From: Paramacrobiotus metropolitanus
Taxonomy: Eukaryota; Tardigrada; Eutardigrada; Parachela; Macrobiotidae
Direction: 5' to 3'
NCBI RefSeq assembly: GCF_019649055.1
Contig: NW_026570275.1
Coordinates: 248,001-312,000, forward strand
DNA length: 64,000 nt
Under the pieces are notes generated by a model. It was not told the DNA's origin, made no database searches, and saw nothing but the letters and a program-made list of their open reading frames with translations. The position numbers and the translations under genes are program-made. Below, piece after piece: positions 20,197-38,008 of this stretch (the stretch's first letter is position 1; every line of letters starts with the position of its first letter).

Positions 20197-20200
20197 GTAT

Positions 20201-20537
20201 TCTAATGCTAGATCCAGAATGGATCCAGGGACGGAGACAGAAACGGAATCTATCCCGTGGAGTGAGCTATGCGATATGTATAGCGAACTACGCGGAATCG
20301 CGAGACGTCGCACCGCTAATAGCCAACTTTTAATAATATTGAAAATCTGCACAACAGAAATCAACAAGTGATCGGCGCAGCTCGATCGCAAATCGTAGAG
20401 CCAATTCAACAGTGTGTAACACTGTGCAGCACGTGCTATGCCGCGCCCACTAGCCAATCAGAGCGAGACACAACACAGACACGTAATCCAGCTGGCGTAG
20501 CGTCGTGGACGTGAACGCTAGTGAACCCCCGCTCACA
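20201..20537 (-). repeat. 3' LTR
   Basis: In element orientation it begins TGTGAGCGGGGG and ends GCATTAGA. The end is not the usual CA. I set it there because TTAGA is shared by both LTRs and because this places the GTAT duplication and the primer site exactly adjacent. A less likely choice ends at the CA five bases earlier. The preceding element sequence (CCCCCCAGAGGCA) is a poor match to a polypurine tract. Confidence 0.9.
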
Positions 20538-23260
20538 TGCCTCTGGGGGGATGCCGAGCTCCGTTGAGGCTGGACACACTCCGAATCCACGAAAAGACGG
20601 CGGTCGCCGGTGTCTGTGCGTGCTCAAAAACATCAAATTCTCTTATTCCATTTTATCACATCAATTCCAAATGCACAATGTGAAATAAAGAGATCTGTAT
20701 CAAAATACTATTCCATATCAATTCTAATACAAAACAGATCAACAGTTAAACAGATCAACAGAAGCAATTAATCAATGTAGACTAGGATCCTCCATTTCTG
20801 ACTCGTAAAGGTCACAGGTCCTGTCCACCGTTTTCCGCACCTTGGCCCATTCCGCTCGCTTGAGCAATTCTGCGCATCCATAGTGCGACTTTCATCACAA
20901 TCCGCTTGAGAATCGGGTGCGTATCAAGTACGACTTAGGGAATACTGCTTCAATCTTTGGGATATGGTGCGTATCAATTGTACGACTTAAAATGAGATCC
21001 ATAAAGGTCATGGAGGGACGTCTTAAGACAAGCGTAGTTCGCTTCCTCCCTGGTAAAGGTTATCCTTTGTTGGGATGATCCGTTGAGATGTGCGACTCGT
21101 TTTGGGTTAATGGTCCCAAAAGGTCATGCGACTTAAATTCCAATACGGTGACTCTCTTGGGCGGTAATGATCCCAAAGGTCATCCAACTTCGCTTCAAAC
21201 TTCGATTAAAGGTCATGGAGGAACTTAGCCAATTTTCTGCGGCCTTCAAGCACTTCTTTGCTTGCCTCCCTGATAAAGATTTCGATTTGACCTTTCCGTC
21301 GCACATCCAACTTCAACATGCCTCGAGCGGCCAGAGTGCCGGCAGAGTTTACCGTAGCATCTCTGATGGGGCCGGCTAACTACCGCATTAAATTTACCCC
21401 ATGACGCTTCCACATTAAATCTTTTACTCTTGTTCGCCGCTTGTGGCCCATCTTCGGTACGAGAGATCCGGCTTGATTACCGTTATTTCTCTCGTTAAGT
21501 TTTGACACTGAATCGCTTGGAGAGAGTGGCCGGCATAGTACACCGTAGCGTCTCTGATGGGGCCGGCTAATGGACCGAATCAAATTCAACCCCATTAATA
21601 TTTCCACCTGTTGTCTTTCTCTTTTTCGCCGCTTGTGGCCCCCTTTCGTGTTCAAGAGATCCGGCTTGATTACCGTAGTTTCTCCTGCCAATTTGTAACA
21701 CTGAGTCGCTTAAGGAGGAGAGCCGGCTGACTGCCGTAGCAACTCCTTTGGGGCCGGCATAATAGACCGAATTGATTTCAACCCCAATCGCTGCTCCACA
21801 TGATTTCTTTATCCTTTGCGATTCTGTGCTATAAACGCTGAAAACAACAATTACACGAATGCAGTTTAAGTTAACATGTTACGTGACCTTTATACTTAAC
21901 CATGATATTCGCTTCTGATGACCTTTCGAGACCTTTTTCGTTAAATCATTAAGGTCAATTGCTTCATTCTAACGCGGTGACCTTTCACGTTTTGTCGTTT
22001 ACGCCAGTTCAAGTGCTCCGTCGTTAATCAAACATTCAACAGAGTTTCTGATTTACTTCCCATCCTTTCCGATATTCAGTTTGAACATTTCAAAGTCAGA
22101 CAGCCATGCAGTTCAAAAGGTCATTCAACGTCACTGCGTTTGTTCCGACGATAATATCCATGGCCGCATCAGTTATGGCCGCCCCCACGAATTTTTATTG
22201 TTGTGCCCCGGTAGTATGTACACCGGTATGTTTTTCGCTGGTATACCGCTAGCATCCGGTTTCTGGGGGGATAATGCCGAGTCCGTTGGGTCCATTTCCT
22301 GGCTCTCTGTTTCAACAATCTTCAACTTCGCCAACGATCCGGATGATGACTGGGCCGATTTCGGCTCATTATTCTTCTCTTCTTCTCTTCTTGCGGCAAG
22401 GTCTCGTGACCTTTCGGTTTCTCCGTTCAGGTAGCCTCTATCAAGGATTTCTGAAACACTTGACGCGCCGAATCGGTTTCCGCATCTGCTGCCGCTTTTT
22501 CCATGGGGAGCATGACCTTTTCTTTCTCCCCTTCTTCCGAAGTTTCATGGTCTTTCAGTTGTCCCGTAGACGCGGAACTCTCTTGACCTTTAGGTTGCGC
22601 TTCCTCTTTCACGGTTCCAGACGTCTCTTGACCTTTAGACTGTTCGTCTTTTTCTGACCAAGTCCCGTGACCTTTCAGTTGGTCTGTCACTTGACGTTTC
22701 ACTTGACACTTGGTTCACTTGACATTTGACCTTTAAGTTTATTTGCGCTTGACCTTTGGTTCGTTAGTCACTTGACCTTATGGTTTTCGGTGATCCGGCT
22801 TCACAATCTCATTTGATGACCTTTTATTTTTGCTGATCCAGATCTTTCGTAACCTTTTGGCTGTTCCATTTGGATTTCTGCCCGAGTCTCTTACCCTTTC
22901 AATTGACCTTTCACTTCTTCCGCTTTTACTTCGATCGACGTTTGCACTTCATTTTGTACTTCAGTCAGAGTCCGATGACCTTTCGACTGGTCGACAATTT
23001 CTGAAGATTCCGGACTTTCGTGACCTTTTCGTTGTTCCATTTGAATTTCGGTCGGAGTATCTTGACCTTTCGATAACCTTTCGCTTCTCTCGTATGATTC
23101 AGTCCGAGTCTGATGACCTTTCGACTGGAGGACCTTCCTGTTGACTTTTCGTCCATTATGACCTTTCTAGTGTCCGTTTCGATGAACTTTTGACCTTTTG
23201 ACATTTTTCAGTTTGGTGACCTTTCTACTTCCATTCCTAATATCGTAAACTCCCGTTAAT
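20538..23260 (-). other. Non-coding 3' region of the LTR element, motif-rich
   Basis: About 2.7 kb after the integrase stop. No sense-strand frame has a recognised domain. It holds about 27 AAGGTCA/TGACCTT motifs, mostly TGACCTT on the plus strand between 21880 and 23225, often 40-60 bases apart. It also contains a tandem repeat of about 195 bp at 21325-21840. Open frames on the plus strand here are antisense by-products of the repeated motif. Confidence 0.7.
21325..21840 (-). repeat. Tandem repeat of about 195 bp, 2.6 units
   Basis: On the plus strand each unit carries GTGCCGGC or GGCCGGC, ACCGTAGC, CTCTGATGGGGCCGGCTAA, CGCCGCTTGTGGCCC and GAGATCCGGCTTGATTACCG in that order. Units start near 21325, 21521 and 21716 (partial). 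A related unit with CCGGCTGACTGCCGTAGCAA and CGCCGCTTGTGGC lies in the 5' leader near 37575-37680, so both ends of the internal region share it. Confidence 0.75.
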
Positions 23261-25405
23261 CTAATTTTTCGGATTAATATCTCTGCGTCCTTTAGTTATC
23301 CGATCAAGGAGTTCTTTGTCGGCCGCATCTTCAACTTCACCTTTCTGGGTCAGCAATTCTGTAGGAGTTAGTTTCTTTTTCCTCTGTTTAACCTTTCTCT
23401 CATCGATGGCTTTCGCTATATCACGGCCCAATTGTTCAGCTTTTGATTTGACCGCCTCTATTTCCTCTTTTCGCTTTTTTGTGAGGTCATCCTCATTATC
23501 GGTAGCAGTGCGTGGTTCGAAAAAGGATTGTTGCAAGTCCTTTTTGGAAGTACGCCCTGGTACTTTGGAACTCGGTTCGATATCGTTTTCCAGTGACCTT
23601 TCTGCCAAATTCCCCGCTTCTGCGTTCAACTTGATTGTGACTGCAGTTTCGAAATCCTTGTCCTCTTTCCTTTTTCTTCCTCTCTTCTGTTTCGGTTTAT
23701 CTCCGCTTGTATCCGGTAGCAGGGAGCGTGGTTCGAAAAATGGTTTCTGTTGTGTGACTGAGTCATTTTTCGGACTCCGCTCTAATTTATCTTCTTTTCC
23801 GTTAGCTTTCTCCGTTTCGGGTAGCAGGGGTGGTTCGAAAAAAGATTCTGCCGAGTCTTTTTGAGTACGCTCTGTTGCTCGTTCTACTGTTTCTTTTTCC
23901 ACTTCAGGTAGCAGAGGTGGTTCGAAAAAATTCGAGGTACGCTCCGATACTTTTTGCGAATCTTTCTCTTCCGGTAATGGCGGATGCCATAGCTTTAATC
24001 GGTCGATCGAAAACACCTTTAAGTCTGCCTCTTTCTTTGGGTTCTGCTCAATGACCTCGGCTTCGTTTGTTCGCGGGAAACTCAGAATCTTCCACACTTT
24101 ATCGTATTTTGACTTGAAGTCCGACTGATTTTCTTTCTTCCCTTGTTTCGTGTCCTTTGGTAATCGTATCAGTACGAGGTCGCCCACTTTGAAGTTCGGC
24201 TCCGATTTCTTCTTATTGTAAATCTCCGCATTCTTCTCGTATGCATCTTTGATATTGCATTTCGCCACTTCTTCTGCAAAGGTCAGGTTCCTCTTCATGG
24301 TCTCCACCCATTCATCTGGAGTCCCATAATCGTCTGGGATATTCGTTTTTGTGACCACATCTTCCGGCATTGTCATTTCTCTGCCGTGTAGCATATAGTA
24401 TGCTGAATATCCAGTTGTGGCGTGTACAACTCTGTTCATCGCCGAAATGACGTATGGGAGGTACTTGTTGAACTTCCTTTCGTTTCCCGCTTTCAAGTAT
24501 TGCGCCAAGCCATCCGCAATCGTCTGCATCTGTCTTTCGACTTGGCCTTGACCTTCTGGGTGATATGCCGTTCCAAATGTGTGTCTAATCTTGAACACAT
24601 TGGTGACCTTTGTCAAAACTTCGGCTGTAAAGTGCCGTCCACGATCCGTGTGTAAGATGTGTGGTGCTCCATGTACCAATATCACATGTTTGACGAACAC
24701 TTTGGCAAATTCTTTGGCTGTAGCCGTCTTCATTGGTACGGCAATCACGTATTTCGTCAACTGATCGATGAACACCGCTATGTACTTATATCCACGTTCC
24801 TTCGTCGGTAGCAATGGTCCTTTCAAGTCCGCATAGACCCGGAAGAACGGATGTCCGACCTTTATCTCTTGCAATTTCCCGGGTGGGCATTTCCTCGGTG
24901 TCTTACGAAATTGACATCCTTGACAGGCACTTATGTAATTCTTCACGTCTGTACTCATCCGATCCCAATAATATCGGAGTCGGATTGCCGTCAATGTCTT
25001 TTCGAATCCCAAGTGTCCTGCCGCTTTCTCGTCGTGTAATGCGTGGATTATCGCTCTTCGCATTGACAACGGTACGACATATGACCTTTCAAGTCTCCCA
25101 TTTTTATCCTTTACTCGGTACAATATGCCATTCCATAACTGGTAATGAACTTCGAATTTCGATCGCGTTTCGGCATCTGGTAGATGTTCCAATTCATCTA
25201 TTATCATCGCCAGATGGGGATCCTTTAGCTGTTTATTCCGCAACTGCAAGTTCGAGTCATCTTCTTCCTCCTCATCGCCTTGTAAGTTAACAATACGGAC
25301 TGTTGCCGTACTGAGTTCGTTCCAATCCTTGATGACCTTGCACCGCGGTAACGGCTTGTACCTCTTTTTGTCTGTTTTGGGAATCTCAACAACTTGATCG
25401 GACAC
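23261..25405 (-). CDS. LTR-element integrase ORF
   Basis: About 714 codons with no ATG near its start; the frame opens just after a stop, so it is probably reached by -1 frameshifting from the preceding pol ORF, which it overlaps by about 180 nt. An HHCC zinc-binding region (HALHDEKAAGH ... CQGC, residues 121-164) is followed by the DDE core: D193 (YADLKG), D254 (HTDRG) and E290 (GQGQVER), giving D-35-E. All are intact. A GPY/F-like module follows (FKVGDLVLIRLP, residues about 400-480). The tail of more than 200 residues is acidic, Lys-rich and low in complexity, with four copies of FFEPP/FFEPR. Integrase inserts the cDNA; the GTAT duplication fits a 4-bp stagger. No chromodomain is recognised. 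Confidence 0.9.
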   Translation of the reverse strand: MSDQVVEIPKTDKKRYKPLPRCKVIKDWNELSTATVRIVNLQGDEEEEDDSNLQLRNKQLKDPHLAMIIDELEHLPDAETRSKFEVHYQLWNGILYRVKDKNGRLERSYVVPLSMRRAIIHALHDEKAAGHLGFEKTLTAIRLRYYWDRMSTDVKNYISACQGCQFRKTPRKCPPGKLQEIKVGHPFFRVYADLKGPLLPTKERGYKYIAVFIDQLTKYVIAVPMKTATAKEFAKVFVKHVILVHGAPHILHTDRGRHFTAEVLTKVTNVFKIRHTFGTAYHPEGQGQVERQMQTIADGLAQYLKAGNERKFNKYLPYVISAMNRVVHATTGYSAYYMLHGREMTMPEDVVTKTNIPDDYGTPDEWVETMKRNLTFAEEVAKCNIKDAYEKNAEIYNKKKSEPNFKVGDLVLIRLPKDTKQGKKENQSDFKSKYDKVWKILSFPRTNEAEVIEQNPKKEADLKVFSIDRLKLWHPPLPEEKDSQKVSERTSNFFEPPLLPEVEKETVERATERTQKDSAESFFEPPLLPETEKANGKEDKLERSPKNDSVTQQKPFFEPRSLLPDTSGDKPKQKRGRKRKEDKDFETAVTIKLNAEAGNLAERSLENDIEPSSKVPGRTSKKDLQQSFFEPRTATDNEDDLTKKRKEEIEAVKSKAEQLGRDIAKAIDERKVKQRKKKLTPTELLTQKGEVEDAADKELLDRITKGRRDINPKN

Positions 25406-28400
25406 TCATTCAGCGCTTGTGTCACTTTGTCCTTTTCCCAAAGGTCATCCCGACTTTCCACCGTTTCGTCAAGTCCGGTGACCTTTCCATTTTGATCTTC
25501 GAATTCCGCGTTAAGTCCGGTGACCTTTAGGTCGCTAACAGCGGGCAACCAGCTTTTTACCCGGTTCACTTTTGCCTCGTTTTCAGCCGACTCATTCGCC
25601 GTAGCTGAAGTGACCTTTAAACGTTTTTCTCTCTGTTCCACCATCTGTAAGAACAGCTGTCCAATTTCGATTGCTGGTTCTTTCGTGTCGAATTCTTTCT
25701 TGTAATCTTCAAAATTCGGAATTTCATCGAATTCTTCTTCATGGCACGTTGGACCTTCAATTGGCGCTCTTGATAAGGCGTCCGCATTGTCGCAGTACTT
25801 TCCTGGTTTATATTCAATTTTGAACTGGTGACCCTGCAGTGCCATTGCCCATCTTGTCAAACGCGGGTTCATTCCCACTTTATTCGTCTCTGACCTTAGT
25901 AAGTTGGTCAGCGCCTGGTGATCCGTTCTTACGGTGAATTCCGCATAGTCGATAAATGGCTTGAATTTTCTGACAGCAAAGACCACTGCCAGACATTCCC
26001 ATTCCGTCACACCGTAATTCCTTTCAGCACCATGTAGAACACAACTCGCGTACGCAATCGGATGTCCATCCTGTGACAACACTGCTCCAATTCCTTCTTT
26101 ACTTGCGTCGCATTCAATAACGGTCGGTTTTGCGGGGTCAAACTTCGCCAATACTGGACCTTCACACAACAGTTGTTTCAAACTGTTGAATTCGTCTTCG
26201 TGCACTTTCGTCCAGTCTTTCTTTACTTGTTTGTCTTGTCTCAACAGCTCATACAAATGACAAGTCTTCTGTGCATATCCCATAATGAACTTGCGATAAT
26301 AATTCGCCAGTTCGAGGAATGACCTTAGCTGCCTTTCTGTTTGAGGTCGTTTAAATTCTGAGACTGCGGTGACCTTTTCCGGATCCATTCGGATTCCATC
26401 TTCACTAAGGATATGTCCCAAGAAACCCATTTGTCTCATTCCAAATTCGCATTTAGTCGGCTTTATCGTGAATCCCGCTTCGACTAAACTCATTAAGACG
26501 TTTCTCAAATTTTGCATGAAAATCGCCCACGTTTTTCCGGCGAAAATAACGTCATCTATGTACCCGAAAACACAACCCTTTCTTTTCGCTTTCGACAGTA
26601 CTTTATCCATGCACAATTGGAATGTTGCTGGGTTATTGCAGACTCCAAATGGCATTCTTTTAAACCGGTACATTCCATCTTGCGTTACAAAGGTCGTCTT
26701 ATTGATTGACGCTGGATCCATTGGGATCTGCCAGAATCCACTTTGCAAGTCCATTTTTCCATAGTATTTGTTGCCTGCACACGCATCAAGCAACTCGTCC
26801 GGATTCGGTAACGGGTAGTTATTCTTCCTCGTCAACTTATTCAGCATAATGTAGTTGACACAAAATCTTGTTCCCATTGTCCCGTCGCCGTTTTTCTTTA
26901 CTGCCAGTACGACTGGGAAACTCCACTCGGCGTCCGACGGCTCGATTACATCTTGTGCCAACATTTCTTCAATATGCTTCGTTATAAACTCGCGGCCTGT
27001 CCAACTCGTTCTGGCCGGGTTACATTTGACTGGTTTCGCATCTCCCGTATCGTTTACGTGAGTGACCCCTTTCACATCTCCATATGGTTTCTTTGATGTG
27101 GGTAAGACCTTCCAGAATTCCCAGAACGCGTTATACACGTCATTCTTTTGTTCCTCAGTTAGGTCGGGTCCTAATTTCAAGTTTCCAATTATCTTTGTCA
27201 GTTCCGCTTTCGTCGTATCGTCCACCTCTGGGTCTTCGAGTACGTTCTTTACTGTCCCAGCGTTAACCTTTACGTTTTCCATATGTTCATACGGCTCCAC
27301 GTAGCCAAGAAGTTGATTTTTCTTCACGATTTGATATTTGCTACTGTGATTCGCGATGACGATTTCGAAGTATTTTCCTCTGTGGTCCGTCACTCCTGCC
27401 AACGGTTGCACATCGGTTTCAATTTGCGGGACCGGTGTAAACATCAACTTGTTCTGAGCCGGTGCATATTTTCCCATCTTGACCTTTACCCGTGTGCAGT
27501 TTGACGGTTTCAATTTAATTCTTTGGTCACTGTAGACCTTAATCACATCTTTCGACATTCTAGCCTTTTCCACTTTCAATCTTCTGACTTTAATTTCTTT
27601 TTCTTTTTCTTCGTCCACTTCGTCATCTTCATCCAGATCCATTAAGTCCTCTTGTTCTGAAAGGTCACTTACGCCTGAATCTTCCGAAGTCGTTGAGTTA
27701 TCACTTGAACTCGTCCACTCGGAGTCCGAGTTACTACTCTCATATTCCTGTACAGTAGCTTGACCTTTATCAGCCTTTTCGAGTGGGCGCTCATCAACTC
27801 CTTCATCTTCTGATAAAAGGTCACTTTCGTTTTCCCGCGAATCGCTAAGTTTTTCCACTTTCGAATTTTTGAGCAGAGGATTGTCCGCTTCCTTTGCCTT
27901 GCGCCCATTTCGTGCGGCGTTTCTCGGGTGACTCCTCGCTACCCGGATTCTTGTTGACGACCTTTCTGTCTGATCAGAGTTTGACCTTTCTTCTTCCGAT
28001 TTTGACTTTTCCAACTCATCAATTTCTTCGGGGCTCATTACTGGTTTTTCGGTCAACCCGACCGGCGGACATCCCTCACCGTTATCGAGTGACCTTTCCC
28101 CGTTTTTTGCCTCAGTTACTGGGTCTTGTTGTTCATTCGATATCCTTTCGACTTCCTCTTTGAACTTCTTCCACATTTCACCTCTATCTGTTAACATCCG
28201 TGCGATGTCGAAAGCCGACTTTGAACTTTCTTCCGTCTCGTTCGATTCTCCTTCAGCTGTCTCTTTAGCTGTTTCTTCCTTCTCCGCTTCTTTCATAGTC
28301 TCTTTATCAATTTCATCCTGTTGGACCGTCTCGTAACCTTTAGGCCGTTTGGGACCAACAAAAACGCAATTTGCCATGAGTTCTTCGGTGACCCAGTCAT

Positions 28401-31400
28401 CACTCGGAATCGTTTCGTACATGTACCACGTATCACCACCTCGTTCTGGGTAGTCGACTCCATCTGGATCTGGTGCAAAGGTCACCTTTTTCTTCTCCAT
28501 CAATCCCGGTAACCTTCTTTTCCGGGTTACTTGCAATTCGCGCATCTCCTTTGCGTCGAATATTGGAATCTCCGTTTCGAATTTCCTCCAGTATTTGTCG
28601 AATATCTGCCAGTTATCATCTTTGAGTGCTTTACAGAATACCACCACCGATTCATATACCGGTGTACCAAGTCCTGTTGGGAATATGACTGTTCTCCCTT
28701 GACCTTTGTACATATGGTTTATGCGAAAGTCCCAGAACAGTTCTATTCTCGCTTCTTCCCATAGCTGTACTTCTTCATTCATTACGTCTATCTCTCTTTC
28801 GAGTTTCCGTTCCGTTTTTACCGGATCAAAGGGATCTTGGATTCCGTTATCCGCACGTTGCTGCCAATGGTTTAGCCATTTCCCTCTCCCCGTAATAAAG
28901 TTTTTTACACATGACAACCAGGTCCGATATCTGTTCCAATGATACCGCTCAATGTGTGGCTTCCACATTTCGTTGGTCCTCATGATACTTTTCGTTTTCT
29001 TTTGATCTTGACCTTTAAGATCTGCTAATGCAGCGTTACATCTCGGCCATTCTGAAAGGTCATCTTGGGAGGCGTCTTGACAACATTCGGTGCATTCCCA
29101 TTGTGGTTGCACTCTACACGGATCCTCATAGTAACCATGTCCGCAACTCCCCATTCGTTCTTCTGGAGTTAATATCCTTCGATTCGTCTGCGGGTTGGCG
29201 ACCTCCTTCTCCTGTGTTGTGGTTTTCTGCTCACGTTCGATTTCCGTTACGATCGCTTCGTCGGAGGATATTTCAATAATCTCCGTTCCATTATTCAGTT
29301 GGTGACCTTTCAACTGCTCAAGTGCTTTATTGCGGATTTCGCTCGCGAACATCTGTTCTTCTTCAACTATTCGTTTCAATATCCGTAACCTTTCACTCTT
29401 TTTATCCTTCCCGACTTTAGCCGTCTTTATTCCCAGTGCCTCTGGTACTGGGATAGGCTTTGCCCACTCCATGCCAGGCACAAGCGATTGTTTCGCTGCA
29501 GCTGTCGCTTTTTTCTGTGTGGCAGCTATCTCTTCAAGTGTTGGTGACCTTTCGTCATTTTCGGTAGCAGATCGAGGTTCGAAAAGATTCGGGATACGCT
29601 CTGGTACTCTCTGCAAATCTTTTTCTTCGGTTTCATTTTCGGTAGTAGATCGTGGTTCGAAAAAGGTCTTACTGACGTTTTTCGGATCCAGCTCTGGCGC
29701 CAAGTTCAAAATTGGTGACCTTTCATCTTTCGTTCCCAGTGCCTCTGGTACTGGGATAACTTTTTCGACACATTCTTTTTCTGTGGCTCCTTGCTCCCAG
29801 TCATCTGCGATCATACTTCTCCCGTCCGGGAGAAATATGATCGCCTCATCCGTGTCTGGCGCAAGCGGTTCCTGTTTCCTCTCGTTCACTTTTTCGACAT
29901 TTCCACTTTCACTTTTCTTCTCCGGTGCCTCTGGTACTGGGATTGTCCGTTGGCTAATCTCGTTCTGCTGCACTCTCGTCATTCCCGGTGCCTCTGGTAC
30001 TGGGATGACCTTTTCTCTTCCCTTTCGTGTCAGCATTATCCGATTTAGTGTGTCTTCAATCTCCTGTTGAATCATTTGCAGCTGCTCAAATGGTGACAAT
30101 TCTTTTTTCGTTTCTTTTGCCTTTCCCGGTGCCTCTGGTACTGGGATTAGCGTTTTTTTAACCGTTTGAGCATTTCCCGTCTGTTTTACAAGTTCGGTGA
30201 CCTTTCCGACTTGGACTTTTGCGATCGGTTTCGGGTCATCTTCTTTCTCTTCTTCGCCTTCATTATCCATCAGTACAAATTTCTTTTCTAAGAAGTCAAA
30301 TCCAAGTAACACCTGTACGTCATCACATTTCGGTCGGACGTAGAAGGAGTGTTCACTAGTCTTTTTTCTTAAGGTCACTGGTGCTACGCAGTAGTGCGTC
30401 ACCAGGAATCCTGACGTTCCACTAATTCCGTTTATCTTCACCAATCTGTCTGGTGGCAATGGGAGCATGTGCAGTCCATTCTTTTCGCAAAACGGTTTGC
30501 TGATCAGCGACGTCTCAGCGCCGGTGTCCAACATTGCGTTGACCTTTATGTCTCCCACTTTCACTTCATGGGTGTACGATTCAATTCTCTTGGGCAATTT
30601 TCCATTTTGAATCTTCAACGTATGAATCTTACATTTCACAGGGATTAGCGATACTGGTCCCGGATCCATATCGGGAAGCACTTGCTCCTTTGCTGAAGTA
30701 CTGTGACCTTTCAGTATTTCGCTTAGCTTGTCAATCCTGTGTGGGACGTTAGTTCGAACGTCGTAGAATTTTTGCGGCTTCTTCTTCTCTGCTTGCTTCT
30801 CTGCAGCCATTTTACCACTGGTGACCTTTTCAACATTCTGCACTTGCGGATTTGCTTTTGTGCTATCCGCGTGACCTTTAGTCACTTCATTTATCGTCTC
30901 ATGGATCAGTTCGTCTTTGCGATTCTCATTTCGTTTATCCCGCAGCTTCTCAATGACTTCACTTGTTATTTGGTCAGCTTGCTTCAAGTCGTCTGCTTCG
31001 CTGTCTTTCATCTCATTTGGTGACCTTTCATATGTTACCATATCATATCCCTTTTCGGTCATCCATTCAATCACTTTTGCAGACACTTCATTGTTCGTTT
31101 TTGTCGGGTCGATTTGCGAAGACATCCCGTCTGTTCGGGCTGGTGACTTGTCATTGGCATCCTTTTGTAGCGCTTGTGAGAAGTCCCGTGACCTTTCAAC
31201 TGCACTACTCTGTTGTGTTTGCGCCATCTCATTTGACCCTCCTTTCTGTTCATTTCGCGCTAAGTCCTGTGACCTTTCATTGCGCTTTATGACAAATCCG
31301 CCGCCCGTCAACTTTTGTATGGGAACTTTTTCTCCATAATTCAGCGGTTTATCTTTCGGCGGTGCATTTCGCGAGTTATTCAGGTCAGCTTGTGCATTCT

Positions 31401-32505
31401 TGTATTCAGTCGCGTTGAATACTGGAGCCAGGTTCGGTGACCTTTCAACTTCTTTTCCAGTAACCAATTCTTCCAGTCTTTTTCTCTCATGTTGCGTTCG
31501 CAATTCTTGCATGTCCCAGTAATCTTCTTGAGACATTCCCGCTTTCTGTTTCGCTTTTGGTGTCACGGGTATCCACATCCCGTGATTCCCATTCGGTCTG
31601 TAGGCTACTTTTTGCCATATTTCCTTCCGTTGCAGCGTTACTGCATCTACAAGTGAGTCATCGGAGTTCTGCTGTGCCGGTTCGCTATTATTCTTCTGCT
31701 GCGCTGTTCGCAGTGTCAAGTCTGTTTCTTGACCTTTTAACACGACGCTGTCGCCGTGACCTTTAGCGTTCGAACGCGCTCCTTGACCTCTCACTTGGAT
31801 TTTTCCCACGGAAGGTGACCTTTCATCTTTTCCGTTAGCTGTGATATTCTGCTCCAACCATTTTTGCGTTATCAATTTCCCATCTTCGTCGTCTGAGCAA
31901 TTCCAGAACTTTGACTTTGTCCCTTCATAACAGTCACAACGTGACTCATTCACTTTGTCGTTTTCTGCCAAGTATTTCCGGAATTTCGCATGTTGCTCAT
32001 TTTCCTCTTGCGCAGTGTCGTTCTGCGGTTTCTTTTGATTCAGGAGCGCCTGTTGAATCTTCGCATTGCGTAATGCCCGGCGTTCAGCTAACACCTTTTC
32101 GCTGCAATACGGTGACCTTTCGTTTTGCTGCGCTGTTCGCAGTGTCGCGCTACTGTCACGACAATTTCCACTCGCAGTACCATTCTGCGGTGACCTTTGG
32201 TCTCGTTGCACATTTCCACTCGCAGTACCGTTCTGCGGTGACCTTTTATCCGCTTGTACTGGTTTCCCGATAACCAGTTCTTTTTGCTGCTGTGACGGCA
32301 TCCTTATAGCCGTTTCAATTTCCTTTTGCAATGACGACAACCATCTAGCCGTTTCAGTTTGCTGTAGCGGCATCCATATAGCCGTTTGCTGTGGTTGCGG
32401 CATCCATATAGCCGGTCCACTTTCTTTTTGCGCTGACGGCATCCTTATAGCCGTCGCAGTGGTCACATTCACTGCAGTACCATTCTGCAGTGGTGACCTT
32501 TCCAT
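25225..32505 (-). CDS. LTR-element pol ORF: protease, RT, RNase H with a very large insert
   Basis: About 2426 residues from the first ATG; the frame is open further upstream to the gag frameshift site at 32574-32580. The N-terminal part (1-640) is low-complexity, with repeated AIRMP/AIWMP and PQNGTASGN pieces and many ERSP, KGH and KVT. The aspartic protease has LDTGAETSLI (about 657) and VLLGFDFL. Residues about 740-1750 are a spacer without a recognised domain; it has five IPVPEAPG/IPVPEALG repeats, two FEPRS repeats, a Cys-rich patch (CTECC) and a compact Trp-rich segment (about 1200-1400). A pre-RT LGYVEP segment precedes RT (about 1830-2030: PFGVCNNPATFQ, GYIDDVIFAG). RNase H (about 2125-2250) has ECDASKEG and DNADALSRAP. 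Catalytic motifs are intact. Typical Ty3/gypsy pol is about half this length or less. Confidence 0.9.
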   Translation of the reverse strand: MERSPLQNGTAVNVTTATAIRMPSAQKESGPAIWMPQPQQTAIWMPLQQTETARWLSSLQKEIETAIRMPSQQQKELVIGKPVQADKRSPQNGTASGNVQRDQRSPQNGTASGNCRDSSATLRTAQQNERSPYCSEKVLAERRALRNAKIQQALLNQKKPQNDTAQEENEQHAKFRKYLAENDKVNESRCDCYEGTKSKFWNCSDDEDGKLITQKWLEQNITANGKDERSPSVGKIQVRGQGARSNAKGHGDSVVLKGQETDLTLRTAQQKNNSEPAQQNSDDSLVDAVTLQRKEIWQKVAYRPNGNHGMWIPVTPKAKQKAGMSQEDYWDMQELRTQHERKRLEELVTGKEVERSPNLAPVFNATEYKNAQADLNNSRNAPPKDKPLNYGEKVPIQKLTGGGFVIKRNERSQDLARNEQKGGSNEMAQTQQSSAVERSRDFSQALQKDANDKSPARTDGMSSQIDPTKTNNEVSAKVIEWMTEKGYDMVTYERSPNEMKDSEADDLKQADQITSEVIEKLRDKRNENRKDELIHETINEVTKGHADSTKANPQVQNVEKVTSGKMAAEKQAEKKKPQKFYDVRTNVPHRIDKLSEILKGHSTSAKEQVLPDMDPGPVSLIPVKCKIHTLKIQNGKLPKRIESYTHEVKVGDIKVNAMLDTGAETSLISKPFCEKNGLHMLPLPPDRLVKINGISGTSGFLVTHYCVAPVTLRKKTSEHSFYVRPKCDDVQVLLGFDFLEKKFVLMDNEGEEEKEDDPKPIAKVQVGKVTELVKQTGNAQTVKKTLIPVPEAPGKAKETKKELSPFEQLQMIQQEIEDTLNRIMLTRKGREKVIPVPEAPGMTRVQQNEISQRTIPVPEAPEKKSESGNVEKVNERKQEPLAPDTDEAIIFLPDGRSMIADDWEQGATEKECVEKVIPVPEALGTKDERSPILNLAPELDPKNVSKTFFEPRSTTENETEEKDLQRVPERIPNLFEPRSATENDERSPTLEEIAATQKKATAAAKQSLVPGMEWAKPIPVPEALGIKTAKVGKDKKSERLRILKRIVEEEQMFASEIRNKALEQLKGHQLNNGTEIIEISSDEAIVTEIEREQKTTTQEKEVANPQTNRRILTPEERMGSCGHGYYEDPCRVQPQWECTECCQDASQDDLSEWPRCNAALADLKGQDQKKTKSIMRTNEMWKPHIERYHWNRYRTWLSCVKNFITGRGKWLNHWQQRADNGIQDPFDPVKTERKLEREIDVMNEEVQLWEEARIELFWDFRINHMYKGQGRTVIFPTGLGTPVYESVVVFCKALKDDNWQIFDKYWRKFETEIPIFDAKEMRELQVTRKRRLPGLMEKKKVTFAPDPDGVDYPERGGDTWYMYETIPSDDWVTEELMANCVFVGPKRPKGYETVQQDEIDKETMKEAEKEETAKETAEGESNETEESSKSAFDIARMLTDRGEMWKKFKEEVERISNEQQDPVTEAKNGERSLDNGEGCPPVGLTEKPVMSPEEIDELEKSKSEEERSNSDQTERSSTRIRVARSHPRNAARNGRKAKEADNPLLKNSKVEKLSDSRENESDLLSEDEGVDERPLEKADKGQATVQEYESSNSDSEWTSSSDNSTTSEDSGVSDLSEQEDLMDLDEDDEVDEEKEKEIKVRRLKVEKARMSKDVIKVYSDQRIKLKPSNCTRVKVKMGKYAPAQNKLMFTPVPQIETDVQPLAGVTDHRGKYFEIVIANHSSKYQIVKKNQLLGYVEPYEHMENVKVNAGTVKNVLEDPEVDDTTKAELTKIIGNLKLGPDLTEEQKNDVYNAFWEFWKVLPTSKKPYGDVKGVTHVNDTGDAKPVKCNPARTSWTGREFITKHIEEMLAQDVIEPSDAEWSFPVVLAVKKNGDGTMGTRFCVNYIMLNKLTRKNNYPLPNPDELLDACAGNKYYGKMDLQSGFWQIPMDPASINKTTFVTQDGMYRFKRMPFGVCNNPATFQLCMDKVLSKAKRKGCVFGYIDDVIFAGKTWAIFMQNLRNVLMSLVEAGFTIKPTKCEFGMRQMGFLGHILSEDGIRMDPEKVTAVSEFKRPQTERQLRSFLELANYYRKFIMGYAQKTCHLYELLRQDKQVKKDWTKVHEDEFNSLKQLLCEGPVLAKFDPAKPTVIECDASKEGIGAVLSQDGHPIAYASCVLHGAERNYGVTEWECLAVVFAVRKFKPFIDYAEFTVRTDHQALTNLLRSETNKVGMNPRLTRWAMALQGHQFKIEYKPGKYCDNADALSRAPIEGPTCHEEEFDEIPNFEDYKKEFDTKEPAIEIGQLFLQMVEQREKRLKVTSATANESAENEAKVNRVKSWLPAVSDLKVTGLNAEFEDQNGKVTGLDETVESRDDLWEKDKVTQALNECPIKLLRFPKQTKRGTSRYRGARSSRIGTNSVRQQSVLLTYKAMRRKKMTRTCSCGINS
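25375..25381 (-). promoter_or_regulatory. Candidate -1 frameshift heptamer C CCA AAA (pol to integrase)
   Basis: Within the overlap of the two pol ORFs the sense strand reads C CCA AAA in the upstream frame, a legal X XXY YYZ slippery heptamer. Integrase lies in the -1 frame. I did not find a convincing hairpin at the usual distance. Chance of some such heptamer in a 180-nt overlap is perhaps one in ten, so this is moderate evidence. Confidence 0.5.
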
Positions 32506-32537
32506 TCCCTTTTTATCCGGTGGTTTCGGGTCGGGGC

Positions 32538-32580
32538 GATCAGTAGGCTCACCGGTGCCTACTGATCTTGCCCGTTTCCC
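32538..32580 (-). promoter_or_regulatory. Gag-pol -1 ribosomal frameshift signal: slippery heptamer plus hairpin
   Basis: On the sense strand the gag frame reads G GGA AAC (32580-32574), a well-known -1 slippery heptamer. Six bases later a perfect 11-bp stem GATCAGTAGGC/GCCTACTGATC with an 8-base loop follows (32567-32538). The gag stop codon TAG lies inside the first arm. The pol frame is exactly the -1 frame and is open through this point. Heptamer, spacer length and stem together are the standard retroviral layout. Confidence 0.85.
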
Positions 32581-33104
32581 TGAACCGGCGCACCACTTTG
32601 TTGCGCGCCCTGCACGTTTCCTTGCACGTTTCCTTGTCCGCCGTTATTTACCGGGACATAATTTTGTCCGCCTCCGTTATTCTGGCCACCACCATTATTT
32701 TGGCCACCACCCTGTTGGTAGTTTCCTTGGCCGCCTCCATTTCCGCTGTTTCGGTTGCCGCCATTCCAATTTCCGCGGCCAAAGACTCTGTTTCTCCCTC
32801 TAAAGCCGCCGCGGAAGCCGCCACGGTTGCCACCGCCTTGGCCACCATTTCCGTTTCCATAATTTCCGTTTCCTTGCTGAAAGTTCGCTTTGGCCTGATA
32901 CCATTGAGCGATCAGGTCATATCCATTTGCCACCGCCTGTCGCCAGCCGCCCGAATTGCGCAGCCGTTGCCACTCTCTGAAAGCGAACAAGTTCGGGTTC
33001 TGATCCGGCGGCGTATTCGCGAACTTGCATCCCTGGGTCTGATGATTGCCATACATACAGTATTGGCACATCTGTACACCGTTTGCAACCCATCCATCAA
33101 TCAT
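32559..33104 (-). CDS. LTR-element gag C-terminal part: zinc knuckle and RGG/GN-rich tail
   Basis: This ORF of 181 codons starts at ATG 33104, overlapping the stop of the preceding gag ORF by 8 nt. Near its start is a CCHC knuckle, CQYCMYGNHQTQGC (C-x2-C-x4-H-x4-C), the nucleocapsid signature that binds genomic RNA. A Gly/Asn/Gln/Arg-rich tail follows, with GGFRGGFRGRN resembling RGG RNA-binding repeats and GGGQNNGGGQNN runs. It ends at the TAG inside the frameshift hairpin. In other retroelements capsid and nucleocapsid are one protein. Here a frame change separates them, either by programmed +1 shift, re-initiation, or indels in the low-complexity Gly/Asn/Gln sequence just upstream; reading other frames there continues the same biased composition, which favours indels. 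Confidence 0.8.
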   Translation of the reverse strand: MIDGWVANGVQMCQYCMYGNHQTQGCKFANTPPDQNPNLFAFREWQRLRNSGGWRQAVANGYDLIAQWYQAKANFQQGNGNYGNGNGGQGGGNRGGFRGGFRGRNRVFGRGNWNGGNRNSGNGGGQGNYQQGGGQNNGGGQNNGGGQNYVPVNNGGQGNVQGNVQGAQQSGAPVQGNGQDQ

Positions 33105-34257
33105 TTGAAACTTGAATTCCGTTCGTGACCCTGATTCTGCTGGAAGTTATTCTGGTTTCCCTATTTGGCTGGAAGTTGCCTTGACCTTGACCTTGATTCT
33201 GGAAGTTCCCTTGACCTCCATTCCAATTTCCATTACCATATCCGTTTCCACCGAAATTTCCATTGCCCACTCCTTGTTGTGGTAATCCTGCATTCATAGG
33301 GGCCACATTCTGTGGTGCCGGTGGAGCCACATTCTGAGGTACCGGTCTCACTTGAGCCGCCGCCTGTATCGCAGCTACCATTGCGTATGTAAGTGGCTGT
33401 CCCGTCTGGCTATCGATAAAGGTCACCTCCTTTGTGACCTCTTGCACCGGGGCTTCTCTGCGGTATTCAACCGCCTGTTGAACCGGTGCTGCCGCAATCC
33501 TTTGTTGTGGCACATTCTCAACTTGTCCTGTGCGAATTGTGACATAGTCCTGGTTGCGTTGACCTTTCGGTGCTTTGTACTTTTCTTCTCCAGCTGACCA
33601 ATGTCGGAAGAAATCTTTGATTTCGGTTGGCGTTCTACACTGCTGTGTGCGCAGTGCCTTATAAAGGTCACTGTCCGCTCTGCATCCTTCGATAAGGAAG
33701 CCGACTGCTTGCTTCTCAGTAATAATCCTTTTCGCCTTGTATTTCATGATCGCTTGATAAAACTGATCAAGAGATTCCTTTCCAAGGTCAAATTTCCTTG
33801 CCATGGCTTCTCGTAAGCCGAGGACTTCTTCATCACGGTCACCGTATTCGTCTTTGAATTTGTTCATCCATTCTGTTATCGTATACTCCATCTCTTCCTG
33901 GAGTGCGATTTCCCTCTCGCCTTCGAACCAAGTTTTTGCTGGTCCTTTCACCGCGCTAGCTATTTCGATCAGGACCTGGTCGTCCGTAAGTTGATAAGTT
34001 CGCTGAGTGTCTCGGACCAGTTGTGTCCAGCCATTGACTGCATCGCGACTTCCGTCAAAGGTCACTAACGTCGTTTTCCGAGCCATCGAGTTGAGCGCTT
34101 TTGTTAATTGCGCCGCTGTCGATTCTGCTGTCAGGTCATCCTCTTCTTCGCTATTTTCATCATCATTTTGGTTTCGTTTCGCCTTTCCGTAACGGGACTT
34201 CCGAGGCGTTCTTGTCGACTGGGGGGTCTGTCCTGAGCCTTTCGTCAATATACACAT
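33097..34257 (-). CDS. LTR-element gag capsid-like ORF
   Basis: About 386 codons from ATG 34257; the frame is open up to 34332, where it overlaps the end of the upstream ORF. Residues about 60-230 read as a retrotransposon gag/capsid domain (VTFDGSRDAVNGWTQLVRD, GPAKTWFEGE, WMNKFKDEYGD, LDQFYQAIMKYK, AVGFLIEGC), the shell protein that assembles around the RNA. The C-terminus turns into a Gly/Asn/Gln-rich region (GNFGGNGYGNGNW) and ends in a stretch whose composition suddenly changes, a hint of a frameshift just before the zinc-knuckle ORF. Several VTF, VTK and KGQ residues come from the embedded AAAGGTCA/TGACCTTT motif. Confidence 0.85.
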   Translation of the reverse strand: MCILTKGSGQTPQSTRTPRKSRYGKAKRNQNDDENSEEEDDLTAESTAAQLTKALNSMARKTTLVTFDGSRDAVNGWTQLVRDTQRTYQLTDDQVLIEIASAVKGPAKTWFEGEREIALQEEMEYTITEWMNKFKDEYGDRDEEVLGLREAMARKFDLGKESLDQFYQAIMKYKAKRIITEKQAVGFLIEGCRADSDLYKALRTQQCRTPTEIKDFFRHWSAGEEKYKAPKGQRNQDYVTIRTGQVENVPQQRIAAAPVQQAVEYRREAPVQEVTKEVTFIDSQTGQPLTYAMVAAIQAAAQVRPVPQNVAPPAPQNVAPMNAGLPQQGVGNGNFGGNGYGNGNWNGGQGNFQNQGQGQGNFQPNRETRITSSRIRVTNGIQVSND

Positions 34258-34297
34258 TCGTTTCAATATGCGGGAAATTGGGAGGGATCGCCGTGAC

Positions 34298-36337
34298 TCA
34301 TGTGCGGATAGCCTCCTGATGGTGGCTCTTTGTCATCTTTGACCTTTTCACTATCCTTTTCGTTTTGACACTTCCGGTGCCCGTACCGGTTCGCAGTGGC
34401 ATCTCGAAGTGGAAGCTTTTACCCGTGCCCGTTTCATGTGCTTTACTGTAACTGGGCGGGGGAGACTCCACTGTTGCTGCCTTGACTCCATGTTGAACGA
34501 GTTGTTCATCCTTATGTTTGTTTGACATCTGGAGGACTTTATTCTCGTCCTCAAGGCGTTTAGTTCGCAGCTGAAGTTCCTCTCTTTGCCTCTTCAAATC
34601 GGAATTTTCCAAGTTGACCTTTCGTAGGCGTTCGTGCAGCTTAAACGTCTCTTGCTGCGTGACCTTTTCGTTATCCTGTTCCATCTTTTTGATGTGCTCG
34701 ACCAGCTCGGTTGTTTCTTTTTCAAGTTGCTTATATTGTCCAGCGGCTGCTCTCAGCTGATTCTTGATCGCGATCAACTCATCATCCTTTGCCAGTGCTG
34801 TGGTAGTCATTTCGAGTAGTTCGCTATTTAGCCTCGTAACTTCCTGGCTCTTTTCTGCAACTTGTTGCTGCCACACTTTATCCTTCCGCTCCAATGCTGT
34901 AACCATTGTATCCATTCGACGTGCTTCCTTCTGCCATTTAAGTCCCTCCTTGGTGACCTTTTCAATGTCTACCATGACCTTTTCATTCTCCCGGTTGACC
35001 TTTTCGATTTCTTCTTTCAGGCGTCCCCCTTCAGTGGCTGTAATGTCTCTTGCCTCGCGCATCTCTTTGATTGCGTCGTTGCGTAACTTTTCAGCTTCGT
35101 CTGCCCGTTTCTGGTGACCTTTCGACTCGTGTTGCAGGGTGCTGACATCTTCCTCCCGCAGCTTCAGGTCATTCCTGAGCTTAAACGTTTCCGTCGCCAA
35201 CTTTGTCAATCGTTGTGTAGCCTCTGCTAGGTTGGCGGCGTATTCGTCCCGTTTAGTTTCGGCTTCGGTGACCTTTTGACGCAATTTGTCACACTCGTCC
35301 TTCAATTCCGCCAAGTGCCGTGACCTTTCGGCTGACTCCTCTGACATGCTCTCGTTAAGGTCACTGACTGCGAGATGACCTTCCATTTCTCTGTCATCTA
35401 CCATTTTCAGGTACTCCTCAGCAAGCTCTTTTTGACGCTCGTATTTAATCTTCCATTCGTCCGCTGTGCTTTCCAAGTCAGCTTGTTGTTGCTCCAGTTC
35501 ATAGATACGAGCATCCAGAGATCCTATCCGATTTTGATATTCCTGTTTCTTCTTCGCCACCAGGCTTTCCTTGGTTTCAAGTTCTTCTTCCAACTCCTTC
35601 ACGCGTCTCTTCAGAGTTGACGTGAGACTGTTAGGTGACGGTGGTCGTACGTTGATGACCTTTCCTGTTGTTGTCCGTTCAATAAGGTGCTCCGGTATCT
35701 CTTTGAAAGGTGTCATCCCTTCAGCACGGTCAGCTTGTCTCATTGCGGATTGGAATGACATATTCATAGTCGTTTCATCGTCCGTGAAATATGATTCATT
35801 GGACTCATCTGAGACCATTGGAGTTGCCCAAAGGTCATCGTCTGCCGCTTTGTCATTCAGCGAAAGGTCACTCAATCCGAGCTCAGCCAATTCCTCTTCG
35901 GTAACCTTTGTCTTTTCCATTTCCACTTGAGCCGGGTTTGCGTTTTTATCCTGCTCTTCTGTTCTGACAATGGTAGCATCCAACTGTGATGCCCCAACTG
36001 CCTCCGCTTCCATTTTTGTGGTTCCATCCTCACCAGTGACCTTTTTCTGGTTCATCGGTTTGCCTCCCGCCGCAGACGCGGGAGTTTGCTTTCCGTCACC
36101 GCTGGAGCTCTCTTCGTTCTGTATAGCTCCGAGCGCCACTTGGTATGTACTGTCACTGCCTTTGCTGTCCTTTCTTGCAAAGGTCACAGCCGCTCGGGTC
36201 TGTCTATCGTGTCCGACTGGACGCGCGAGCGACTTGTATTCCTTCTTATACGGATCGACTGCGCCTTGCTGTGATCCGCGGGAGCTCCTGCTTCCCTGGC
36301 TGCTGTTAGATGTCGGTTCCACATTGTCTTTGTCCAT
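34298..36337 (-). CDS. Coiled-coil ORF upstream of gag in the LTR element
   Basis: 679 residues from ATG 36337 (the frame is open 15 codons further, but without ATG). The N-terminal 200 residues are Ser/Gly/Glu-rich and disordered-looking. From about residue 235 to 640 there are nearly continuous heptads rich in E, K, L and R (ELEEELETKESLVAKKKQEY, ELEQQQADLESTADEW, LRNDLKLREEDVSTLQHESK), predicting a long rod-like coiled coil. No catalytic motif is seen. Ty3/gypsy elements usually begin with gag, so an extra structural protein in front is unusual. It may act in particle assembly or trafficking, or be a captured host gene (inference). It overlaps the open part of the gag frame by 35 nt, so translation of gag would need re-initiation, a +1 shift or a spliced RNA. 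Confidence 0.7.
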   Translation of the reverse strand: MDKDNVEPTSNSSQGSRSSRGSQQGAVDPYKKEYKSLARPVGHDRQTRAAVTFARKDSKGSDSTYQVALGAIQNEESSSGDGKQTPASAAGGKPMNQKKVTGEDGTTKMEAEAVGASQLDATIVRTEEQDKNANPAQVEMEKTKVTEEELAELGLSDLSLNDKAADDDLWATPMVSDESNESYFTDDETTMNMSFQSAMRQADRAEGMTPFKEIPEHLIERTTTGKVINVRPPSPNSLTSTLKRRVKELEEELETKESLVAKKKQEYQNRIGSLDARIYELEQQQADLESTADEWKIKYERQKELAEEYLKMVDDREMEGHLAVSDLNESMSEESAERSRHLAELKDECDKLRQKVTEAETKRDEYAANLAEATQRLTKLATETFKLRNDLKLREEDVSTLQHESKGHQKRADEAEKLRNDAIKEMREARDITATEGGRLKEEIEKVNRENEKVMVDIEKVTKEGLKWQKEARRMDTMVTALERKDKVWQQQVAEKSQEVTRLNSELLEMTTTALAKDDELIAIKNQLRAAAGQYKQLEKETTELVEHIKKMEQDNEKVTQQETFKLHERLRKVNLENSDLKRQREELQLRTKRLEDENKVLQMSNKHKDEQLVQHGVKAATVESPPPSYSKAHETGTGKSFHFEMPLRTGTGTGSVKTKRIVKRSKMTKSHHQEAIRT

Positions 36338-36407
36338 GTTGATCGGATAACTTTGACGCTCCTGCCAATTGTTCTCACACACACGTTATCGTATGGTTTA
36401 TTCAGTT

Positions 36408-37140
36408 GTCCTAAAGGTCACTTTACAGTTCGAAATTTTTCTAAGTCCCTTTTAAAGGTCACTTTTCGGTTGAAAAATTTCGACTAAGTTCCGTTTAAAG
36501 GTCACTTTTCAATAAAACTTCGAGAGATTTGCCCTAAAGGTCACTTTTCAGACAAAACTTCGAATCCGCTTTTACAGTTTAAAACACGTTTACGAATGAG
36601 ATCCTACTGCTGCTAATATCGTTATACTATTACAACGCAATTTCAACTTCAATAAAGGTCACCGTTGATCGTTTGCAGATCTTAAAGGTCACTCGAGATG
36701 TCAATTCAGTCAATTTTAATTTTTCGGTAAAGGTCACTTTTCGGGGTCAAAGGTCAACTTCTGATCTCAAAGGTCACTTTCCGACTCAACTCAACTTAAA
36801 AGGTCACTTTCCAGCTCAGTTTAACTTAAAGGTCACTTTCCGACTCAATTTCACTTAAAGGTCACTTTCGAGCTCAATTTCAGTTAAAGGTCACTTTCCA
36901 GCTCAATTTCAAGTTCAAAATCACTTTCAACTCAATTTCTGTTAAAAGGTCACTTTCAGTTCAACTCAACTCAAAAGGTCACTTTCCCTTTCAAATATCT
37001 CATTTCGATTCCTATTTCTCATTACAACTCAAGTTCAACGGGTCACTTTCCAGCTCAATTCAAGTTAAAGGTCACTTTCCAACTCAATTTCAGTTAAAGG
37101 TCACTTTTCCCTTGTCTTAACTCGAAAGGTCACTTTTCCT
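36408..37140 (-). repeat. 5' leader array of about 18 AAAGGTCACTTT units
   Basis: On the plus strand AAAGGTCACTTT recurs about 18 times in 730 bp, all in one orientation, in the densest part every 29-30 bases as a unit like AAAGGTCACTTTCCAGCTCA followed by ATTTCAGTT. In the element's own sense the units read GTGACCTTT, opposite to most copies in the coding region. Its position between LTR and first ORF resembles the Su(Hw) insulator array of Drosophila gypsy (comparison from known biology only). Confidence 0.85.
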
Positions 37141-37733
37141 TTCAAATATCTAGTCTCAAGTCGAAATTCTCGTTACAACTCAAGTTCAGCGGAAAATCCC
37201 CATTTACGTTGTTTACTTCGTTCTGATTGGTCGACTAGCTCAAACAATTCAGTTCAGATTTCAGCCAATCACAGCTCAGATAACTGACCAATCACATTAG
37301 GCCACTTAAATTTTATATCAGCCTGACGTCACGGTCAACGGCCAGACATGCGTGCCGCGTGCAAAACTCCGCCTACTTCTATGCTCAGCTCAGTACGGAC
37401 CAATAAAATTGACGATTTTACCATCTAACCAATCCCGTAATTAATAACGGCTTTTCTACCTGTTCACCGTCCGTTCCGCGGGAAATGATCCAGATGATCC
37501 GATTCTTCTCCACACTCCGTTCCCGCGCTGCCGCTTTTCCGTAGCGGTTGTGCCGCACGCTTTAGTCAGTTACTGTGCCGGCTGACTGCCGTAGCAACAG
37601 TAGTGGCGCTCTACTCCAGTTTGGAGGAGTCTGATCTGGTCTTGTCCCGTGCACCTTTTGGCGCTTCGCCGCTTGTGGCTCACGGCTTAGGCTCGCTGAA
37701 TTCGCTGAATCTTGCCGAGTATCAGTGACACCA

Positions 37734-37837
37734 GTGTAGGTCTTCGCTGAAGACTCTACACCGAGGAACACTGACGACTGAACTCTTGTACTCTTGCTCA
37801 GCTGAGGAAACAGCACAGGTCTTCGCTGAAGACACTG
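37734..37837 (-). repeat. Twin bulged hairpins in the leader near the primer site
   Basis: 37734-37761 and 37816-37837 each form a stem GTCTTC-GCT-GAAGAC, extended past a single-base bulge by GTGTAG/CTACAC in the first and CAG/CTG in the second. Two stems with the same loop and the same bulge 160-270 nt downstream of the primer site are plausible RNA packaging or dimerisation elements (inference). Confidence 0.6.
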
Positions 37838-37997
37838 TACCGAAAACCAAAGCTGGAAATCCGCGTCCCGATGGAGTTGCACCGCTTGTGGTGTGCGCTT
37901 TGCTGTTGCACGGACCTGTGCCTTACTGGTCACAGAAAACACATCAGATAACAGGCCAACTTTGCCTGACACAATTCAATCAGAGAACCGCTGTCGG

Positions 37998-38008
37998 CTC
38001 TGCTACCA
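37998..38008 (-). promoter_or_regulatory. Primer binding site for initiator tRNA-Met
   Basis: The plus strand reads CTCTGCTACCA directly next to the 5' LTR. This equals the 3' end, with CCA, of animal initiator tRNA-Met as I recall it, so the sense RNA (TGGTAGCAGAG) would pair with it to prime minus-strand cDNA. Zero spacing from the LTR supports the LTR boundary chosen. Confidence 0.8.

Follow-up and report, generated by a model that had tools for sequence, protein, structure and literature searches.

One octamer along a giant retrotransposon

Why does a single eight-base word recur about a hundred times along one mobile element, in noncoding and coding sequence alike? The element lies in a stretch of 64,000 nucleotides from the tardigrade Paramacrobiotus metropolitanus (genome of 170 Mb; contig C55:248001-312000), which was analysed whole and is called the window here. 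It is a long terminal repeat (LTR) retrotransposon, and the word is AAAGGTCA, or TGACCTTT when read from the other strand. Our results support retention of this octamer for reasons of the DNA, not of the encoded peptide.

On the plus strand between 20804 and 37140 we count 73 TGACCTT and 40 AAGGTCA seven-mers, in agreement with the 73 and 39 of an initial annotation, and 65 TGACCTTT and 36 AAAGGTCA octamers. A trinucleotide Markov model of the element, both strands included, predicts 4.65 seven-mers and 1.59 octamers, against 113 and 101 observed; AAAGGTCA is the most over-represented octamer of the element. The rest of the window holds seven seven-mers and four eight-mers. The word is thus rare there, as annotated, although the seven-mers had been put at about four.

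The element is of the Ty3/gypsy type, as attested by an LTR pair, a target-site duplication (TSD), a tRNA primer site and the order protease, reverse transcriptase (RT), RNase H, integrase. The annotation had recognized an LTR retrotransposon but underestimated its size, as it extends from LTR to LTR over 20201-38345. With LTRs identical at 336 of 337 positions, this copy is young. Its features, including its open reading frames (ORFs), are the following.

20201..38345, minus strand: whole LTR element, family A, internally shortened form, 18,145 bp, delimited by LTR pair and TSD
38009..38345, minus strand: 5' LTR, sense TGTGAG...TTAGA, without octamer, from LTR comparison
20201..20537, minus strand: 3' LTR, 337 bp, one mismatch to the 5' LTR
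20197-20200 and 38346-38349: TSD GTAT, flanking both LTRs
37998..38008, minus strand: primer-binding site TGGTAGCAGAG
36413..37132, plus strand: 5' leader array, 18 AAAGGTCA, every site opposite to the transcript orientation
34298..36385, minus strand: ORF1, 695 aa, 11 sense and 3 antisense octamers
33097..34332, minus strand: gag-like ORF, 1 sense and 3 antisense octamers
25225..32643, minus strand: pol ORF (aspartic protease, RT, RNase H), 30 sense and 5 antisense octamers
23261..25405, minus strand: integrase ORF (H2C2 zinc binding, rve), 3 sense and 1 antisense octamers
26378..27479, minus strand: longest octamer-free coding stretch, on the RT core side
20807..23224, no strand assigned: 3' region with a remnant of accessory ORF4, 26 octamers (20 sense AAAGGTCA, 6 sense TGACCTTT)

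We take the primer-binding site to be the complement of initiator-Met tRNA. Pfam places the protease at 693-786, RVT_1 at 1917-2079 and RNase H at 2169-2270 of pol, and the integrase in the next ORF. The top protein match of pol, at 95%, is itself from P. metropolitanus. A Pfam search found no match for ORF1, many homologues of which carry coiled-coil protein names, nor for the gag-like ORF, named from its position. In the window copy pol (25225-32643) and integrase (23261-25405) occupy separate frames; a few other copies have a single frame of about 3,000 aa. Stretches of the form GCTACGG...GCCGGC are repeated at 21457-21534 and 21650-21727 (78-bp repeats), with a similar one, seen by eye, in the leader at about 37578-37596. 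An Rfam scan of 20000-38600, these repeats included, gave no known RNA family at the gathering score.

The four ORFs contain 57 of the 101 sites, in both orientations, and the octamers yield the peptides ERSP, KVT and KGH where they fall, for instance in pol. Sense AAAGGTCA is found in all three coding frames, as the annotation had it for the sites at large; sense TGACCTTT, however, is confined to the two frames that avoid an in-frame TGA stop. The leader array is partly built of 29-bp tandem units, which diverge while the octamer is retained.

Families of related elements

A genome search with the LTR gave at least 41 matches (40 of 307 candidates scored), which pair by coordinates into at least 15 elements, five near 18 kb and ten of 22.5-26.4 kb. 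A search with the RT gave at least 103 matches at 86-100% identity (103 of 1,700 candidates scored). They fall into identity groups A (96-100%), B (about 91-93%) and C (about 86-88%), some matches at 88-91% being left ungrouped.

Eight sibling copies of family A carry 107, 97, 89, 89, 102, 90, 84 and 76 octamers. Together with the window copy, nine of nine have a leader array of 8-18 sites, and nine of nine have no octamer in the first 360 bp, the LTR.

In the 22-26 kb copies of A that we examined, and in relatives from B, the integrase is followed by two large accessory ORFs, ORF4 and ORF5. Neither has a Pfam match above the cut-off; ORF4 shows a weak match to TMEM61, below it (E 0.0016). ORF5 has an RS-rich middle and begins with a zinc-ribbon-like CxxC...CxxC, a start common to families A, B and C. 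Of the 18-kb copies two were tested, the window copy among them; both lack ORF5 and keep only a remnant of ORF4. Among the matches listed, all 45 for ORF1 and all 10 for ORF5 come from P. metropolitanus.

Selection on the DNA word

We shuffled synonymous codons within each of the four ORFs 1,000 times, preserving protein and codon use. The shuffles hold on average 4.65 sense and 0.31 antisense octamers, against 45 and 12 observed. The count is therefore not reproduced by this control, one that the annotation had called for (mean of 5.0 sites versus 57). In sense orientation no shuffle reaches the observed count in ORF1, pol or integrase, and the shuffle maximum matches it in gag (1); in antisense, the maximum is lower than observed in gag and pol and equal in ORF1 (3) and integrase (1).

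Protein-guided alignment to six A siblings shows octamers kept at 50/56, 46/56, 42/55, 49/56, 43/56 and 48/57 sites (76-89%). Control octamers in the same siblings, in that order, are kept at 703/931, 340/969, 388/922, 337/964, 267/945 and 332/971 (28-76%), the 76% belonging to the closest sibling, which differs least from its control. A copy of family C keeps 29 of 50 octamers versus 30 of 805 controls. With blastn, 14 of 16 coding sites are kept in C, in an alignment possibly driven by the motif itself, and we rely on the protein-guided value instead.

Fourfold-degenerate sites were compared where present in at least five of the eight A siblings. Inside motifs (n=61) they are on average 97.7% conserved and 56 are invariant; outside (n=1,363), the mean is 75.9% and 564 are invariant (Fisher p 6e-16). 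The motifs thus do not decay like neutral sites among siblings, the second comparison for which the annotation had asked. In the C copy, 41/44 fourfold sites are conserved in motifs versus 309/778 outside (p 5e-13). The data come from one host species and include one C copy; as the A copies are related and their sites not independent, it is the per-site fourfold test and family C that carry weight.

Retention is equal in both orientations: 290/346 sense and 80/92 antisense in the eight siblings, 22/38 and 7/12 in the C copy. Column conservation spans eight bases and is at background level directly outside the octamer. The octamer persists where the protein tolerates it, as had been suggested; no 8-mer lies between 26378 and 27479, the RT core being free of it as annotated.

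Peptide selection, codon use and mutation bias are ruled out by the shuffles, the equal retention of orientations and the fourfold sites. That the pattern is an artefact, in which mutation bias spreads the octamer or the octamer encodes a favoured peptide, has a negligible chance of being true. ERSP, KVT and KGH do recur, but the effect extends to every sense frame, to both strands, to noncoding sequence and to fourfold sites, so that no single peptide explains it, which the annotation had already argued. In addition, family B, with related genes, shows the neutral outcome described below.

The leader array is kept as well, with 12/18 to 18/18 octamers across siblings and 8/10 in one partially aligned copy; the neighbours of these octamers are kept at 11-19%, except in the closest sibling (96%). 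Drosophila gypsy belongs to the Ty3/gypsy class. Its insulator is a single 340-bp cluster of 12 Su(Hw) sites, situated in the 5' leader (PMC2374998). Both elements thus have a cluster of one factor's sites in the 5' untranslated leader, which would suit a role in transcription only, the leader array being an enhancer or insulator and the coding copies hitchhiking. Here, however, the word differs and the sites also fill the ORFs and the 3' region. Retention of coding sites is close to that of leader sites and exceeds that of nearby fourfold sites; the coding copies are therefore not hitchhikers, and we regard such a role as very improbable.

Probable loss of the octamer in family B

The octamer is conserved between families A and C and absent from the three B copies sampled. 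When sites of A are mapped to three B copies, 0/50, 0/37 and 0/36 are intact, against 60/800, 31/578 and 26/550 of the controls. Fourfold sites of B behave neutrally, with 14/32 conserved at former motifs and 476/1,044 outside; the near-zero retention does not require active removal. Neither over-represented k-mers in B nor k-mers that its copies have retained in common revealed a comparable replacement motif, the best candidates being weak words of the CTGGGA type.

Trees of the RT-RNase H piece and of the pol 1600-1880 piece, with the motif-poor family D (P0002, P0004) as outgroup, group B with A, C branching outside them, with supports of 0.97 and 0.91. This conflicts with the integrase piece, which groups C with A (0.80); the protease piece gives no resolution and the gag piece has no outgroup. 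In the P0002 and P0004 proteins we inspected, the peptide signature of the octamer is absent. Because sites of A and C fall on the same codons, it is likely, though not proven, that their common ancestor had the sites and that B lost them.

Shape of the site

The base 3' of the octamer is almost never G: it is G at 1/565 sense and 2/268 antisense sites of nine A copies (3/833) and at 1/87 sites of the C copy, whereas G follows other TCA in 20-30% of cases. Each one-mismatch variant occurs 0-8 times, against 101 exact words in the window and 87 in C. From the eight-column constraint, the equality of orientations and the exclusion of G, we define the site as one of double-stranded DNA, AAAGGTCA with a base other than G after it.

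Sites are mostly single. Among 899 neighbouring pairs in nine A copies and the C copy, none has the arrangement TGACCTTT-n6-AAAGGTCA, known as NurRE, and nine lie less than 20 nt apart, two of them DR1-like. Dimeric receptor arrangements within 8 nt are absent from the window and from the C and B tiles. Spacings show no clear helical phasing, with R at 10.5 bp of 0.02-0.21 in the window, the C copy and four other A copies. To judge from the site itself, a highly precise reader that recognizes double-stranded DNA as a monomer is most likely.

It is also conceivable that the word acts in RNA, sense AAAGGUCA and UGACCUUU pairing with each other so that the long genomic RNA is compacted or packaged. 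The two orientations, both retained, are exact complements, pairing would account for the exactness, and the leader array is almost entirely opposite in orientation to most coding sites. Local folding pairs 96 of 928 motif bases with a motif of the opposite orientation. Yet the same folds, which capture local pairing only, show no excess of paired bases in motifs (535/928) over others (11292/19788), and pairing does not explain the exclusion of G in both orientations. Nor would the DNA polymerase element described below, which shares the word, be expected as packaged RNA. A role in RNA therefore appears improbable.

A candidate reader

The octamer is identical to the NBRE, AAAGGTCA, which the NR4A receptor NURR1 binds as a monomer; the NR4A dimer site is TGACCTTT-n6-AAAGGTCA (PMC10419244). 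The identity proposed in the annotation is thereby confirmed, and the element matches the NBRE pattern in using the exact word, singly rather than as NurRE dimers. It differs from the NBRE in that about 100 copies tile noncoding and coding sequence. We found 63 zf-C4 matches in the host genome and read 20 exons by eye, of which one looks NR4A-like; to the eye the host also has DNA-binding domains resembling those of FTZ-F1, ERR and NR6. This 47-aa DNA-binding domain (DBD) exon, the sole exon compared, has NGFI-B as best solved structure (1cit, 77 bits; RXR, 62). As background rather than a result of ours, a C after the site suits the NR4A binding matrix.

The word also occurs outside these retroelements. 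A 2.0-kb piece of a DNA_pol_B_2 locus has seven octamers, and an apparent intron accounts for six. Octamers in this unrelated mobile element favour a reader encoded by the host. At C1:2923200-2925200 and C3:2426000-2428000 we observe a DNA polymerase B gene of mobile-element (viral) type; its apparent intron consists mostly of TGACCTTT units, and a weak match to an A32-like ATPase lies close by.

The reader is very probably a protein; that it is a nuclear receptor seems slightly better than an even bet, and that it is NR4A in particular slightly worse than one. As a mechanism, selection would maintain about 75-105 octamers throughout the internal part of a giant Ty3/gypsy family, and one DNA-binding protein with this sequence specificity would read them, chiefly as monomer sites. 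Bound over the full length of the integrated element, or of its cDNA, the protein would mark or coat it, and the coat would keep chromatin open, insulated or unsilenced over 18-24 kb. Open chromatin would in turn let a very long unit be transcribed. We give an even chance to the proposal that the element owes its expression, or its escape from silencing, to a coat of one sequence-specific protein, most likely an NR4A-type receptor of the host. It is equally balanced whether the job is expression or anti-silencing, with the coating keeping the 18-24-kb unit transcribable, rather than cDNA handling; insulation and cDNA handling are the alternative roles. If the NR4A reading is true, the host NR4A DBD would bind AAAGGTCAC, and AAAGGTCAG less well.

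Several observations weigh against this proposal. Family B, with an RT 93% like that of A and many copies, retains relatives of ORF1, gag, pol, integrase, ORF4 and ORF5, and it has no octamer in 21 kb of one copy (1.0 expected), nor in 7 kb of each of two further copies. The octamer is thus not needed for this type of element as such. The near-absence of single-mismatch variants is sharper than expected of many receptor sites. The evidence for a host NR4A is a single DBD exon, and its expression in the germ line is assumed. Around the 2.0-kb array of the polymerase locus, only five sites occur in the 9 kb fetched on either side.

The element might instead encode its own reader, in ORF1, ORF4 or the zinc-ribbon-like, RS-rich ORF5, as the anti-silencing protein VANC recognizes VANDAL21 in Arabidopsis. 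There too an exact motif is dense in one family and gained or lost between related groups, much as the octamer is dense in A and absent from the sampled copies of its sister B. The binding of VANC21 falls drastically on single-base changes in its 9-bp motif (PMC5735166), a sharpness that resembles the exactness of the octamer; moreover, long copies do have large accessory ORFs free of Pfam matches above the cut-off, and ORF5 keeps its CxxC...CxxC start in all three families. The systems differ in that VANDAL motifs are mainly noncoding, in one orientation, spread by tandem repeats and read by a protein of the element (PMC5735166), whereas 57 of 101 octamers lie in the four ORFs, in both orientations. 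Against such a reader, B has relatives of ORF1, ORF4 and ORF5 without the site or any replacement found, the two 18-kb copies tested retain their sites without ORF5 and most of ORF4, and the octamer also clusters in the unrelated polymerase element. We consider an element-encoded reader unlikely, though a serious contender.

Relation to known systems

Arrays of sites for host or own factors are already known from the leaders and noncoding regions of transposons. Here such a signal runs through all sense coding frames and is kept by selection across diverged families, from which the amount of binding along the whole DNA, and not one control region, seems to be important. Among the papers listed by one open-access library on such retrotransposons, giant tardigrade LTR elements, the transposable elements of this species and tardigrade NR4A, titles and starts of abstracts describe no coding tiling in all frames.

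Sireviruses are also LTR retrotransposons with a conserved short motif in many copies, but their motifs are palindromic, placed in the LTRs and upstream of the env-like gene, and described as noncoding (PMC2829016). Burro of planarians and Ogre of plants are likewise very long gypsy-type elements with extra ORFs. The present element differs in its 0.34-kb LTRs and its other accessory ORFs, and motif tiling is not mentioned for Burro or Ogre in the available part of the source (PMC6431247).

A broader picture can be offered tentatively. The octamers may form a DNA address code over the whole length, about one word per 180 bp in both orientations, by which a host nuclear receptor would coat the element or its cDNA end to end. 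Selection on it would exceed that on silent sites and reshape proteins (ERSP, KVT, KGH); the code could be switched off in a sister family, and the polymerase element would share its word. This suggests that a nuclear receptor may serve as a handle for mobile DNA in an animal famed for surviving extremes. With family B as a natural control, having related genes without sites, the question of how a giant retroelement is expressed becomes directly testable.

Octamers elsewhere and other features of the window

The genome has 42,562 copies of AAAGGTCA and 15,522 of the same octamer read backwards as a control, and triplets within short gaps number 1,007 against 2 for the control. In the first 0.83 Mb of C1, outside clusters and among the matches listed, the octamer is by eye about twice as frequent as the reversed control. 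Such scattered copies may also matter. Minisatellite-like units AAAGGTCATCMACCTTTCTG at C1:566200-568400 and C7:413000-414500 contain the octamer; its arrays in minisatellites may be incidental. Repeats at C2:312000-313200 and C5:2092300-2093500 have it beside GGTCGCCGTGTC, where the following base can be G, unlike in the retroelements.

In the flanks of the element, outside 20201-38345, GTAAAGTA/TACTTTAC occurs 23 times versus 2.4 expected and is apparently a local repeat. The window further contains two adjacent astacin metalloprotease ORFs (11534-12802 and 14831-16090), perhaps a tandem duplication. An ORF with an RVT_1 domain, separate from the LTR element, lies at 50397-53099, and a similar one was recognized by eye at 53765-54964.

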